DNA of 64,000 nt. Source: an uncultured Bacteroidales bacterium. Lineage in GTDB: Bacteria > Bacteroidota > Bacteroidia > Bacteroidales > Paludibacteraceae. The stretch is from positions 45,508-109,507 of the forward strand of contig ONEG01000005.1 in assembly GCA_900316845.1 (NCBI GenBank). Direction: 5' to 3'. Under the pieces are notes generated by a model. That model had not been told where the DNA came from. It saw only the letters and a list, made by a program, of their open reading frames with translations, and searched no databases. Shown here in pieces: positions 33,280-64,000 of the stretch. Numbering within the stretch: position 1 is the first letter of the stretch; every line of letters starts with the position of its first letter. The translations under genes were made by a program, and so were the position numbers.

Positions 33280-34170
33280 TTATAATCTGGCTTTGATCGT
33301 TTTAATCTGCGAGGAATCCATTTGCGTAAAGGCGAAAAGGCGTTTGCCTGCATCTTTGAGCGATGCGCCTATTAAATAAATCGTTTCTTCGTCAATGATT
33401 AAAAATCTGTCGTGGCAAATGGATGTCGTATGGAGCGCCAAACCTTTATACTGCACGTTGAAATTCTTCTCTGCCAATTGTAATGCACTCGAAATGTCCT
33501 TCGTGTAAATATCTACTTGTACTCCTTCCTGTTTCGGACTCATCATCGTCAAAACCGATTCATCCACGTAATTATCAATCAACAGGATAGACTTTTTAGC
33601 CGACTTTATTAACCGTTCAACCAACTCATATGCATCATATATCTGCCCGTCCACAAAGATCCCTTCACGAGGAGGCAACGAAGTACGAATAAAGAAATCT
33701 ACTTTATTTTGCAGTTCATGTATTTGTTCCGTGTGCTCTTGTAATTTGTTATCTATCCGTTGTTCCAAGTACTGGATATGCGGATTGAGGGCATAACCAC
33801 GCAATAGATAATCTTTCAACACCCGTGTCGCCCATTGACGGAAACGTGTGGCATTAGCGCTATTTACCCTGTAACCAACCGATAAAATTGCATCAAGATT
33901 ATAAAACATCGTACGATACTTCTTACCATCAGTAGCAGTATTTTCCAAAATGGAAATAACTGAATTTTTATCAAGTTCTCCCTCTCGGAATATATTCGCA
34001 AGATGTTTAGAAATAGCGGGTATCTGCACGCCAAACAGCGTCGCTATTTGTTGCTGCGTCAGCCAAACCGTTTCATCAGCGAGTTGCACATCCAGATGGA
34101 CGGTATTGTCGGCGCTGCTATACACCACCACGTTTTCCGTGCTATTATATGTCGCTATTTCATTTGGCAT
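33280..34170 (-). CDS. RhuM-family protein
   Basis: A 296-residue protein of the virulence-associated RhuM family. An N-terminal winged helix-turn-helix-like part (DETVWLTQQQIATLFGVQIPAISKHLANIFREGEL) is followed by the conserved core TDGKKYRTMFYNLDAILSVGYRVNSANATRFRQWATRVLKDYLLRGYALN. A C-terminal domain, ILLIDNYVDESVLTMM...HDRFLIIDEETIYLIGASLKDAGKRLFAF, looks like a single phospholipase D-type half-site (H-x-x-x-x-x-D). Function unproven; these genes occur on mobile elements and near defence loci. The start is set at the ATG at 34170 rather than the TTG at 34182. That ATG lies inside the broken KilA-N frame. Confidence 0.85.
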   Translation of the reverse strand: MPNEIATYNSTENVVVYSSADNTVHLDVQLADETVWLTQQQIATLFGVQIPAISKHLANIFREGELDKNSVISILENTATDGKKYRTMFYNLDAILSVGYRVNSANATRFRQWATRVLKDYLLRGYALNPHIQYLEQRIDNKLQEHTEQIHELQNKVDFFIRTSLPPREGIFVDGQIYDAYELVERLIKSAKKSILLIDNYVDESVLTMMSPKQEGVQVDIYTKDISSALQLAEKNFNVQYKGLALHTTSICHDRFLIIDEETIYLIGASLKDAGKRLFAFTQMDSSQIKTIKARL

Positions 34171-34453
34171 TTGTCTTCTCAATGAATTTGTTTACAGACA
34201 TATAGAAGCGATTGCTGCCGGCTTCCATTCTAATTCCCCCGAATTCGGGGGTTTAAAAATCAGGATTATACAGTTGCTCCCATACTCCCAAAAAATCTAT
34301 AGTGCTTTTGTTATTTAGCCATTTCTCTATTAATCTGCTCCCTTCCTCAAAACCTTTGGTCATATCCGTCAAGCAGATATAATCATTTTGATTCATATCC
34401 AACAGCACATTGATAGCAGTTCCTTTTACGACTATGGATTTTGTCTGTTTCAT
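34160..34453 (-). pseudogene. KilA-N domain gene, broken by an in-frame stop and truncated
   Basis: The frame starts MKQTKSIVVKGTAINVLLD and reads through YICLTDMTKGFEEGSRLIEKWLNNKSTIDFLGVWEQLYNPDF to TAA at 34255-34253. Without any frame shift it then goes on as TPEFGGIRMEAGSNRFYMSV-NKFIEKTNAK to TGA at 34162-34160. The continuation is just what KilA-N proteins have at this point, so the TAA is a nonsense change (probably Lys AAA to TAA). The rest of the protein is missing; RhuM begins inside its last codons. Upstream is a good promoter. KilA-N proteins are DNA-binding proteins of phages and mobile elements. Confidence 0.8.
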
Positions 34454-58728: not shown

Positions 58729-59673
58729 TCATTTTTTGTCTTTCTTTGCCCTCGGATGCGTCTCCATATATACTCGCTTGATCTGCTCAAAAGTCGTGTG
58801 CGTATATACCTGTGTCGTACTCAGAGACGCATGACCCAATAACGCCTGAATCGTTCGGATATCTGCCCCGTTATCCAACATCGTCGTCGCAAACGTGTGA
58901 CGCAACACATGCGGCGAGTGCTTCTTCAGCGTACTCACTTCCCCCATACGCGTGCGCACGATATTATATAAGGTGTTCTTCGTCATCGGCACAACCTCGC
59001 CGGACTTGGATTGCTTGACGAAAAAAGTCTGCGGGCCGGTGATAAGTTCCGCTCGTGCCTCCATATATTCCTTGATCTGCTCCGCTAATGCAGGCCCGAA
59101 AGGCACAATCCTTTCCTTTCTCCGTTTACCGAAGATACGTACTTGCCCTTGCTGCAGATCCAAGTCCTTGTCCTGCAATCCCAACATCTCCGCCTGACGC
59201 ATCCCCGTCTGATAGAGCATCTCGATAATCAATGCGTCGCGGATGTCCTCAAACGAGTCGCCGCACGTCGCTAATCGCTCATCACTCAACCGTTCCTCTT
59301 CCGCCATCTCCGCCGGACGGAAGAAAACCGGCAACGGCTTATCCGCTTTCGGCGGAACAACACGCGCCGTGACATCACGAGTCACCTTGCCCGTACGAAG
59401 CATAAAACGATAGAAACTACGCAACGCGGACAACTTGCGTTTGACAGAACGGGGAGACTGTTTATCTTGTTCCAGCATTTCCAGCATCCAGGTCTTGACA
59501 TCATCCTCTCCTACTTTACGAACCTGTTCTGCGCTCACCACCAAAGGATCGGCTCCTTTCGCTGACCAACCCATGAACCGGCCAAAATCCCGCAGGTCAT
59601 CGCGGTATGCCTCCACCGTCCGCGGAGAATACTTCCGCTCGATAGCGATATAGTCCAAAAAATGCCGAATCAT
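58729..59673 (-). CDS. xerC: Tyrosine recombinase XerC
   Basis: A 314-residue site-specific recombinase that resolves chromosome dimers. It has an N-terminal SAM-like core-binding domain (FLDYIAIERKYSPRTVEAYRDDLRDFGRF). The catalytic domain carries YQTGMRQAEMLGL (first Arg), HVLRHTFATTMLDNG (His and second Arg) and LLGHASLSTTQVYTH (His and nucleophile Tyr). The reading frame opens at a TTG at 59691, but that codon overlaps the promoter, so the ATG at 59673 is the start. Chromosomal XerC/D is likelier than an integrase because the neighbours are core genes and no attachment site is visible. Confidence 0.9.
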   Translation of the reverse strand: MIRHFLDYIAIERKYSPRTVEAYRDDLRDFGRFMGWSAKGADPLVVSAEQVRKVGEDDVKTWMLEMLEQDKQSPRSVKRKLSALRSFYRFMLRTGKVTRDVTARVVPPKADKPLPVFFRPAEMAEEERLSDERLATCGDSFEDIRDALIIEMLYQTGMRQAEMLGLQDKDLDLQQGQVRIFGKRRKERIVPFGPALAEQIKEYMEARAELITGPQTFFVKQSKSGEVVPMTKNTLYNIVRTRMGEVSTLKKHSPHVLRHTFATTMLDNGADIRTIQALLGHASLSTTQVYTHTTFEQIKRVYMETHPRAKKDKK

Positions 59674-59677
59674 GGTG

Positions 59678-59709
59678 CAAAGGTACAACAAAAGTTTGAC
59701 ATACGCAAG
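59678..59709 (-). promoter_or_regulatory. Promoter for xerC
   Basis: Minus strand CTTG (59709-59706), 20 bases, TACCTTTG (59685-59678). The -7 element lies only 5 bases before the ATG at 59673, so the message should be leaderless or nearly so. Confidence 0.65.
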
Positions 59710-60181
59710 CGCCCGCGCGATTTTTTTCGTTTTGCCCCTTTTTTTTCTTTTGCCCGGAGCGTCCTCCCGTTGAAGCTTGCGGTGTAGGCGGTTTACCGCT
59801 GCGCCGGTACTCTCTCCGCCTTCGTCCGTTAGCCCCGATTTTATGCGGGATTATCTGTCATCTATCATCTATCCCCTTTCTGTGTCCGTTACGCCGGATG
59901 TCATCCGGCATGTAGTACCCTGTCTTGTTGTTTACCGCGTGCCCCCCTGTGATTTTTTTCCTTTTTTTTCTTGCGTATCTCGTTTTTTTGTTGTACCTTT
60001 GCACCCAAATTTTGACACACGATACCACATAAATCTATCATATTGGCGCATCGCTCAAAGATTTAGGCAAGAAATGGTTCGCGTTTAGTCGAATGGAAAA
60101 GACAACAACTGAGTTATTAGAGAAAATGTAACTATGCACATCTACGTAGCATCCTCGTGGATGTATTGAGACGATAAAGCA
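59710..60181 (+). other. Gene-free stretch before the Rhs-tip gene
   Basis: No convincing gene. Visible items are a palindromic GCCGGATGTCATCCGGC near 59911-59927, a period-8 TCATCTAT repeat near 59846-59870, and the promoter at 59970-60001. A short leader follows with a 12-codon frame (MEKTTTELLEKM, 60093-60131) and a small ATCC-TCGT-GGAT hairpin just before the start at 60182. Confidence 0.6.
59970..60001 (+). promoter_or_regulatory. Promoter for the HNH-Rhs chimera and lipoprotein
   Basis: CTTG (59970-59973), 20 bases, TACCTTTG (59994-60001), 180 bases before the start codon. Confidence 0.65.
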
Positions 60182-61693
60182 ATGGATTTGCTACCTGCAG
60201 ACATATTTCCTTTTGATGAAGAATTAGAGTGCGACTATAAAGGCGAGCACTATTCCGTGCGTGATAATGGTGCCATCATGCGCCACGCAAAGGGGAGAAA
60301 ACGTCCTTTGGATGAGGTGTGGACGTTTGGAGAAAAAGATGTAGCAAATGGCTATATGGTCTTTCGGAATGAACGAGTTCACAGAATAGTTGCAACCGCA
60401 TTTATAGGTTCAGCTCCAAGTCCACAACATGTGGTGGATCATATTGACACCTGCGCGCTAGGCATGGAACGGCTGATGAATGCGCGGTCGTATATGGATA
60501 CGTTGTTCGTCCGTTCCGTAGCCTTGCGGCCGGACACTACCGCTACTTTTGTGGATATAGACGGAGAAGCGTTTCCGGAGTTGCAATGGCAAGGTGTGGA
60601 TAGCAGCCTTGTATGGACACTGGCGATAGAGAGTGATTCGGACATGCTCTATCCTGTCCTGACGAAAGATATTTCTTGTCTGGATCCCCGTGTCAGTGGT
60701 GTCTATTACTACCATTCCGACCATCTGGGTTCTGCCGCATGGGTGACACATGGTGCCCAAGCTGTCCAGTTTGTCCACTACATGCCGTTCGGCGAGATGT
60801 GGTATAACCAGCAAGGCTCGGCGTATAACGAGCGGTATAAATTTACCGGCAAAGAGCGTGATGCAGAGACTGGATATGATTATTTTGGTGCACGATATTA
60901 TGCATCCGGTAATCTTTCGTGGTTGTCCGTTGATCCGTTAGCCGATAAGTACCCGAATATATCTCCGTATGCATATGCAGCATGGAATCCAGTAAACCGA
61001 ATCGATCCCGATGGTAGGGATTGGTACGAGGCTGAAGATGGAACTTCTGCGCTCTGGAAAAACTCTAACGATGCGTCAATTAACCTAAATGGTGTCTCGT
61101 ACAACAATATCGGAGCAAATTATAACCATACAGTAGGTAATACCACATATGGCTATCACCAAAACGAGTTGGCCTCTGTAACCACAGATGCGATGAGTGG
61201 AGATAATTATATATCTCAGTTCTCGAAAGAAGATTGGAATGGAACGCCCGCAATGAAGGCATGCAATAAAGCATGTGATGCAATGCTCGCGTCGGCTGGA
61301 TTTGCGAGTTCCGAGCACAAGAACAAAAACATAATTGTAGAGAATGATGGGACCGGAAGAGCAGGAATAGCTAATAACAATGCCGAGAGTATTATTGGTA
61401 AGATGACAGACATGCTATACGCTGGCATTCCCTCTAAAGCATGTGTAGATATTAGACAGGGAAGCTCTTCTGCCGATAAGATAGGTGATCATTTTATAGT
61501 GATAATGGGAATAAAAGAGTACATATCTCAAGGAAAACCGGCGGGTGTGTCCTATCGTTTCTTTGAGCCAGGAACAGGTCAAGTAAAATATCGAATAGGA
61601 GAATTGAACTTAGTTAACAACAGACTGACAGGAAACGCTCCATATAGTAACACACGTCATTATACAGTATCAAGCATAAGGTTTAGCAGATGA
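60182..61693 (+). CDS. Chimeric HNH-fragment / Rhs core protein with a papain-like C-terminal toxin candidate
   Basis: A 503-residue protein of three parts. Residues about 14-90 match the front of an HNH homing-type endonuclease (YSVRDNGAIMRHAKGRKRPL, RVHRIVATAFIGSAP, VVDHIDT) and stop before its NRPENLRW half. Residues about 175-279 are an Rhs repeat-associated core (YYYHSDHLGS, KFTGKERDAETGYDYFGARYY, LSVDPLADKYP, NRIDPDGRD). The last about 220 residues are a variable tip with ACNKACDAML (Cys361, Cys365), GDHFIVIMG (His437) and FFEPGTG. This is a Cys-His order seen in papain-like peptidases and deamidases. No signal peptide and no Rhs shell are present, so it is an orphan tip. The next gene overlaps by ATGA and is a candidate immunity gene. 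Confidence 0.8.
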   Translation: MDLLPADIFPFDEELECDYKGEHYSVRDNGAIMRHAKGRKRPLDEVWTFGEKDVANGYMVFRNERVHRIVATAFIGSAPSPQHVVDHIDTCALGMERLMNARSYMDTLFVRSVALRPDTTATFVDIDGEAFPELQWQGVDSSLVWTLAIESDSDMLYPVLTKDISCLDPRVSGVYYYHSDHLGSAAWVTHGAQAVQFVHYMPFGEMWYNQQGSAYNERYKFTGKERDAETGYDYFGARYYASGNLSWLSVDPLADKYPNISPYAYAAWNPVNRIDPDGRDWYEAEDGTSALWKNSNDASINLNGVSYNNIGANYNHTVGNTTYGYHQNELASVTTDAMSGDNYISQFSKEDWNGTPAMKACNKACDAMLASAGFASSEHKNKNIIVENDGTGRAGIANNNAESIIGKMTDMLYAGIPSKACVDIRQGSSSADKIGDHFIVIMGIKEYISQGKPAGVSYRFFEPGTGQVKYRIGELNLVNNRLTGNAPYSNTRHYTVSSIRFSR

Positions 61694-62325
61694 AAAAGAT
61701 AGCAATATTATTACTGTTGTGTATGAATTCTATAATTAGTTGTTCTAATGAAGAATTCGATGTTTTTAGCAGCAAATTTCCTCAACTATCTCTCCCGATA
61801 GCTTCGGATAAGTCTTCCGATTTTAGTGATAGTTTCTACTATCACATTCTGTTGGATAAGGAATCGTCTATCACCGAACAGGAGTTCGTAAAATATATCA
61901 AGACTTCAAGATGGGGAGAGTTCCAGCAACCAACAGATTCTTTACTGCATATATACCATTATGTCCCTGTGGGACGGTTAGACTACAAATCATATGTCAT
62001 ATTATTTGTCAATTGTGGATATATGCCGTTACCAAATGATTATGATGGTCTTGATATAGGAACTTACGAAAATCTGCTATGCGTGTATACTAGGGATGGT
62101 AAACGTACCGATTCAATTGTCTTTTCTGGCCATGGCTGCATTTCTAATCAAGATGGAAAATTTGCTCCCAATTGGCATGCGGATATGCCTCTAACGTTTG
62201 AGGAAGGCTCATTTACGGATGATGGAACGATAGTAATCCAGCATTTTAAGGATAATGAACGGACTCCTTATAGCATAGATACACTTCAAATAGATGAGCG
62301 TAGTGGCAAAATCATTAAGCAGTGA
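61690..62325 (+). CDS. Lipoprotein, candidate immunity protein
   Basis: A 211-residue protein with a lipoprotein signal (MKKIAILLLLCMNSIISCSN, lipid Cys18). No family was recognised in the mature part; it reads as an alpha/beta domain (YHYVPVGRLDYKSYVILFVN, ENLLCVYTRDGKRTDSIVFSG, TLQIDERSGKIIKQ). Its start overlaps the chimera's stop (ATGA), and polymorphic toxin tips are usually followed directly by their immunity gene. The base composition is clearly more AT-rich than the flanking core genes, another feature of such cassettes. A lipoprotein would suit a toxin that acts or arrives in the periplasm. Confidence 0.65.
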   Translation: MKKIAILLLLCMNSIISCSNEEFDVFSSKFPQLSLPIASDKSSDFSDSFYYHILLDKESSITEQEFVKYIKTSRWGEFQQPTDSLLHIYHYVPVGRLDYKSYVILFVNCGYMPLPNDYDGLDIGTYENLLCVYTRDGKRTDSIVFSGHGCISNQDGKFAPNWHADMPLTFEEGSFTDDGTIVIQHFKDNERTPYSIDTLQIDERSGKIIKQ

Positions 62326-62657
62326 GCGACCAGATGCATAAGACTCATCAGCCGCGGACGATATATGATTCGAACGCAGGCACGTTGGACCTCTATTGGG
62401 ATGCGAACGGCAACCTTGCACAGGTGATTGGTTGTAAACAGAACTTAGGGCGTTTGCATGAATGGGATGAAGAGAACAGATTGCGGTTCGTATTGGGAGA
62501 CAAGCATGCAGGTTATTACGGTTACGATGCCACGGTTACTGCATATTTCGCGCCGTGCGTAGAAGAAGCCTTAGAAGCCCTATATGAGACCTCTACCGCC
62601 ATCAAAATTCTCCGCGATGACAAGACTTACACGGTGATAGGACAAGAGGTCAAGTAA
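62322..62657 (+). pseudogene. Orphan Rhs YD-repeat fragment
   Basis: A 111-codon frame (GTG at 62322, or ATG at 62334). It contains YD-repeat sequence: IYDSNAGTLDLYWDANGNLAQVIG, LGRLHEWDEENRLRFVLGDKHAGYYGYDA. In a full Rhs protein this part precedes the repeat-associated core, so here it lies downstream of a tip that should follow it. After YGYDA the sequence changes to an unrelated helical end (EEALEALYETSTAIKILRDDKTYTVIGQEVK). It is probably a piece of a second Rhs gene left by recombination. Confidence 0.75.
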
Positions 62658-62678
62658 ATAGTATATCTTAGAAAAACG

Positions 62679-62716
62679 AACAGACCTACGAAACTTAATC
62701 GTGGGTCTGTTTTTTT
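62679..62716 (+). terminator. Intrinsic terminator after the Rhs locus
   Basis: AACAGACCTACGA (62679-62691), 7-base loop, TCGTGGGTCTGTT (62699-62711): 13 pairs with one T-G, followed by TTTTT. It closes the Rhs-tip/lipoprotein/fragment unit. Confidence 0.9.
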
Positions 62717-63717: not shown

Positions 63718-63730
63718 GTCGTTCCCGTAA

Positions 63731-63905
63731 GATGATCCCGTGATGGTCAGCTTAAGCTAAGGCTCGTTACGACTCGCGACTACGTCGCTCGATGGAAACT
63801 CGCCTTGCTCTACGCTCTCCCCATAGCAAACAGCCTCCGGCTTGGTTTACTCTGGGGACCCCAAAAGAAAAGTCGGTTCAAGAGCCCGACCATCACGGGA
63901 CCATC
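63731..63905. repeat. Structured element bounded by an 18-bp inverted repeat
   Basis: GATGATCCCGTGATGGTC (63731-63748) and GACCATCACGGGACCATC (63888-63905) are complementary at 17 of 18 positions. The 139 bases between contain AGCTTAAGCT, GCGAC-TAC-GTCGC and a long imperfect hairpin from CCCCATAG near 63829 to CTCTGGGG near 63867. No credible gene lies inside. It could be a small non-autonomous mobile element or a structured RNA. The remaining sequence to 64000 shows only a CCCTCA/TGAGGG hairpin. Confidence 0.6.
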
Positions 63906-64000
63906 TGCGGAGGAAAAGCAAAGAACAAAACAATCAAAAAGCCCTCACAATCGGCATTGAGGGTCCCCGACGGGCGCTAACGGAGTGCACCCGGTGGGGA

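Follow-up and report, generated by a model that had tools for sequence, protein, structure and literature searches.

How the C-terminal tip of an Rhs toxin came to lie behind the front of an HNH gene, and what such a gene can still do, is the question raised by a locus near the end of a contig from an uncultured Bacteroidales bacterium of the Paludibacteraceae. The window, that is the whole stretch of DNA analyzed, comprises the last 64 kb of contig C19 in a genome of 2.34 Mb (37 contigs, 96.6% completeness). Here a single open frame of 503 codons on the forward strand runs from an HNH front through the end of an Rhs core into a C-terminal tip; a lipoprotein open reading frame (ORF) overlaps the stop of this frame by ATGA. 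The locus is probably a stranded (orphan) Rhs toxin-immunity pair with a papain-like tip, carried on a recent deletion chimera of an HNH and an Rhs gene. An initial annotation made from the sequence had already placed the three parts in one frame, noted the ATGA overlap and numbered Cys361, Cys365 and His437 in the tip; all of this was verified. Relatives were drawn from a genus sample of 178 genomes and an order-drawn sample of 393 genomes, and their genomes and loci are given below as G- and L-numbers. The parts of the locus are:

60182..61693, + strand: 503-codon open frame (HNH front, Rhs core end and C-terminal tip)
59993..60451, + strand: block in common with the intact HNH locus of G460 (98.0% identity by sequence comparison), the end of which is the fusion point
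60182..60451, + strand: HNH_3 gene front, residues 1-90, broken off within the HNH motif (Pfam match, genus comparison)
60452..61009, + strand: Rhs core end up to the PVNRIDPDG motif, with TIGR03696 at 60779-61015 (NCBIfam match)
61010..61693, + strand: predicted papain-like toxin tip, residues 277-503 (predicted structure, fold match, alignment)
61262-61264, 61490-61492, 61565-61567 and 61679-61681, + strand: tip residues C361, H437, E462 and R500, respectively (alignment)
61690..62325, + strand: lipoprotein of 211 residues, immunity candidate (50% identity to the G035 lipoprotein that follows the same tip)

The tip and its linked lipoprotein

The Rhs core was recognized by the NCBIfam model TIGR03696 over residues 200-278 (61.6 bits against a cut-off of 32.5) and precedes a variable C-terminal tip. 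The tip itself (residues 277-503) matched no Pfam family and a single NCBIfam model by chance (E 0.17). Its predicted structure has the papain-like order: Cys361 lies close to the beginning of a helix, His437 opens a later strand, and an acid stands just past the next strand. By far the best structural match of this model was 9jdd_A, from a PDB entry titled effector-immunity complex, which holds the C-terminal domain of BtaeB with BtaiB from the type VI secretion system (T6SS) of Bacteroides fragilis. The tip shares the fold and active-site residues of 9jdd_A at 29% identity, but it sits on an Rhs core and is at most a putative T6SS cargo. The conserved C, [DE]H, [DE] and R of Tox-PL3 are also present on the papain-like fold, and the passages on Tox-PL3 in Zhang et al. 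(2012, PMC3482391) place that family in RHS proteins of Bacteroidetes and delta-proteobacteria. The comparison with Tox-PL3 covered signature and fold, and one relative of the tip (L062) has Asn at the position of the acid. As modeled, the tip probably belongs with the papain-like cysteine enzymes of the BtaeB/Tox-PL3 type. Among the best 50 structural matches listed, none was an NlpC/P60 or Tae-type amidase, a fold that had also been considered as the closest one; this does not by itself exclude such an amidase.

The same tip (57% identity) ends a 1354-residue protein with LTD, DUF6443 and RHS-repeat matches in the genus-mate G035, where a lipoprotein 50% identical to that of the window begins over the tip stop. 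The G035 contig corresponds to JAFSKL010000015.1, from a Paludibacteraceae metagenome-assembled genome of goat reticulum. The tip on a full-length Rhs protein, which the initial annotation had proposed to look for in related genomes, is thus found there. Its reading of a papain-like cysteine toxin tip followed by a lipoprotein immunity candidate agrees with the papain-like order in the model, the match to an effector-immunity structure and the recurrence of the pair in G035; in kind that reading is correct, and a named structural relative can now be set beside it. Upstream of the G035 tip, the Rhs region (L037 9445-16550) consists of two genes with overlapping ends, of 1014 and 1354 residues, the second having its own signal-like N-terminus, LTD and DUF6443. 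Silent sites in the tip and lipoprotein genes are saturated between the window and G035, so no substitution-rate ratio was obtained.

The tip is rare, occurring in 2 of the 178 genus genomes and in 10 of the 393 order-drawn genomes, about half of these 10 by partial matches. A scan of viral contigs gave 49 pattern matches and no relatives, and a plasmid tblastn gave no match. Eight named loci came from the scan of genome contigs, and in six of them (L056, L057, L058, L059, L061 and L062) a secreted-type ORF overlaps the tip stop or lies within about 25 bases of it, that of L057 being cut by the contig end. Five of these six ORFs carry a Cys that we take, by eye, to be of the lipobox type. Judged from gene order, the linkage of tip and lipoprotein is firm among close relatives. 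Lipoprotein relatives also adjoin other tips. A new tip was seen in G198:C20 (L089 1-2136, E 3e-19), behind a HELGH stretch, and the lipoprotein starts a few bases past its stop.

The HNH-Rhs junction and its alternatives

The HNH_3 match of the fused protein covers residues 65-89 and profile positions 2-25 of 46 (21.0 bits for the whole protein), in agreement with the initial annotation that the HNH protein is cut; the front alone scored 24.1 bits, just below the cut-off of 24.8. The HNH motif is incomplete here, and the whole gene of G031 covers profile positions 2-45. The front is present in 10 of the 178 genus genomes, and the window frame alone continues into Rhs. The other nine are open frames of 362-404 residues, two of which read as whole HNH genes, in G031 (402 residues, full HNH_3 match of 55.3 bits) and G460 (390 residues). 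Compared with G460, which is another species of the genus, the window has a single silent difference across 270 HNH coding bases, and between 60006 and 60181 it differs at five single bases. Identity ends at 60451, where G460 continues the HNH motif and the window turns to Rhs. At this breakpoint lies a D-x-I-D-T motif, which is D-H-I-D-T-N in the HNH protein and D-I-I-D-T-S in an Rhs relative of G015, in the frame of the fusion.

These comparisons suggest that the fusion is most likely a recent scar, left by a short-homology deletion between HNH codon 90 and the Rhs core. If so, the frame came with the shared motif, and an in-frame fusion needs no selection for expression. Because the HNH part is nearly identical to that of the donor, either the event was recent or the junction is an assembly error. 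The initial annotation had seen the HNH piece as an unusual way of keeping the toxin expressed, a view that the comparisons do not support: one genus genome carries the fusion and nine others have open HNH frames. The position of the breakpoint and the almost unchanged HNH part likewise lend no support to a purposeful fusion. By inspection of its N-terminus, the fused protein shows no clear signal for export.

Several observations weigh against the proposed pair and deletion. Two of the eight named tips lack a secreted-type neighbor: behind L060, a tip without its end, the next gene encodes a 413-residue protein of another kind, and in L063 (Myxococcus eversor) no similar ORF follows the tip. 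The L063 tip relative closes a 544-codon open frame in which no Rhs core was seen by eye. The lipoprotein model is weak (predicted local distance difference test, pLDDT, 65) and had no fold match at E<=0.001, BtaiB included; PDB sequence searches with the lipoprotein and its profile also found no relative, BtaiB included (best E 0.46 and 0.49, respectively). A lipoprotein profile built from the tip-adjacent genes found 15 places in 11 of the 393 genomes, of which four are profile members (G000, G131, the first gene of G118 and G359:C29), leaving 11 for counting. The initial annotation had asked whether the lipoprotein occurs beside unrelated genes, and the result is mixed: a tip lies in the stretch at 2 of the 11 places (the second G118 gene and G198), one place begins right at the end of its contig (G394:C108), and the stretch read held no tip at the other eight, three of which had about 160 to 540 bases upstream. 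In its gene context the wider lipoprotein group thus appears also to occur by itself, which would be expected of orphan immunity genes and of unrelated lipoproteins alike. At the breakpoint, 10 of the last 15 bases agree between the G460 HNH gene and the G015 Rhs gene, with GACAC as the longest uninterrupted match. No Rhs parent of this fusion was found, the other Rhs matches of the genome itself being 42% and 55% identical over short stretches. The junction could also be a metagenome assembly error, the tip and lipoprotein being real and the fused gene nonexistent. The genome, with the contig number and completeness given above, looks like a metagenome assembly, as its genus-mate is, the junction lies 3.5 kb from the contig end, and the HNH block is nearly identical to a gene of another species; but that block differs from the G460 sequence at several bases and is not simply that strain's sequence. 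Assemblers join on words longer than the stretch shared at this join, which is short as far as relatives show. We regard an assembly error as unlikely.

That the tip is a processing peptidase releasing parts of Rhs proteins, with the lipoprotein an unrelated neighbor, is much less probable still. Some papain-like domains of polymorphic toxins are so described in the relevant passages of PMC3482391, and lipoprotein relatives without a tip would fit, but in the window, in G035 and in the loci read the domain sits at the C-terminal end, which is the toxin position. The title of its closest structure and the recurring pair also argue against such a role. Equally improbable is that selection keeps the fusion, the HNH promoter, leader and start codon expressing the tip as a cytoplasmic toxin-antitoxin or defense-like unit. 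The frame is open throughout, a promoter-like motif lies upstream, the catalytic residues appear intact in the tip, and Salmonella orphan Rhs toxins, according to the portions of PMC7043789 concerned with them, use internal promoters and act inside the cell. On the other hand, a toxin in the cytoplasm would be out of reach of the lipoprotein, the join is very young and was seen in one of the 178 genus genomes, and the frame follows from the shared motif. A related proposal, in which an orphan Rhs toxin was taken up by a mobile HNH gene and received from it promoter, leader, start codon and N-terminal domain, becoming a new cytoplasmic toxin kept by selection, we likewise hold to be very improbable; if true, free-standing HNH genes would serve to carry polymorphic toxin tips from one locus or species to another.

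Leader, neighboring genes and secretion markers

The features around the pair are:

59988..60001, + strand: promoter-like TTGTTGTACCTTTG (pattern match)
60039..60134, + strand: tail of another gene within the leader (matches in 6 of 21 genomes, including ends of frames of 249-327 residues)
62322..62657, + strand: second fragment of an Rhs core, ending in an unrelated tail of 41 residues (ORF, Rhs comparison)
62678..62712, + strand: terminator-like hairpin (scan, with 5 such sites found against 2.4 expected in shuffles)

The promoter-like motif is presumably of the Bacteroidetes type; the pattern TTGNNNTANNTTTG occurs 7 times in the window against 0.55 expected in shuffles, and a sigma-70-type scan was uninformative (5 sites against 8.3 in shuffles). 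The gene tail in the leader, which we take to be RhuM-like by name, had no Pfam or NCBIfam match. The same arrangement precedes the intact HNH gene of G460, and the idea that the leader (60039-60169) is a collection of gene debris formed within this genome was therefore set aside. Since the block reaching from 59993 to the fusion point is common to the intact G460 locus, the leader ahead of the ATG arrived together with the HNH gene. A 300-residue ORF at 33280-34182 has an end resembling the leader tail, and more relatives lie on contigs C14 and C35 of this genome. A 36-base inverted repeat (59674-59709 and 59970-60005, 86% complementary) bears two divergent promoter-like motifs, and a 48-base stretch of G460 (L097 548-594) is 95.8% identical to 59959-60006. 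A complete integrase-family protein, a Xer-type recombinase, is encoded at 58729-59691 beside tRNAs and a tuf-like gene; from this context we take it to be a housekeeping xer gene and set it aside as mobilizer of the tip-lipoprotein pair.

Downstream, the second Rhs fragment is a remnant of a further module, and its 41-residue tail looks, by eye, like that of a type IX secretion system (T9SS) substrate. The leader tail, a small ORF, and the tail and Rhs piece of P0003 together gave one chance match against Pfam and NCBIfam (E 0.11). A 19-base inverted repeat (63730-63748 and 63888-63906, 95% complementary) lies 94 bases from the contig end. The T9SS marker SprA_N was found in 39 of 41 genomes, namely this one and 38 of 40 relatives. 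The T6SS marker TssD (PF17642) was found in none of the 41 genomes, yet it was also absent from all 14 controls and is hence uninformative.

Orphan Rhs modules and the fate of the pair

In consisting of a displaced Rhs C-terminal fragment that keeps a remnant of the core and is followed by a linked gene, the locus resembles the orphan Rhs modules of Salmonella, as these are presented in parts of PMC3967940 and PMC7043789. There, recombination with the main rhs gene is reported to restore expression and delivery of orphan tips (PMC3967940), and orphan toxins are also expressed from internal promoters (PMC7043789). The locus described here differs in having an HNH gene as N-terminal partner and distant Rhs matches elsewhere in the genome.

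In the proposed orphan pair, a full-length Rhs carrier would bring the tip to rival bacteria, where the tip would cut or modify a substrate in the periplasm or envelope by means of Cys361, His437 and Glu462; in the envelope of the producer, it would be blocked by the lipoprotein. The carrier would have been lost when the recent deletion joined HNH codon 90 to the Rhs core at the short shared motif and left an in-frame chimera. If expressed behind the HNH leader, the tip would remain cytoplasmic and no delivery is expected, so that any present value of the locus most likely lies in the immunity lipoprotein, or else in the tip as a reserve for future recombination. The lipoprotein may go on shielding the cell from kin that carry the full toxin; protection against toxin is what the relevant passages of PMC12247911 ascribe to orphan immunity genes of gut Bacteroidales.

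The tip ties the Rhs-borne tips of several Bacteroidota, together with the Myxococcus relative, to a newly solved effector fold of B. fragilis, and the linked lipoproteins form a set of immunity candidates that points to an envelope target. The nearly unchanged copy of a donor gene shows how a short-homology deletion can give rise to a toxin chimera that has the look of design without necessarily being designed.
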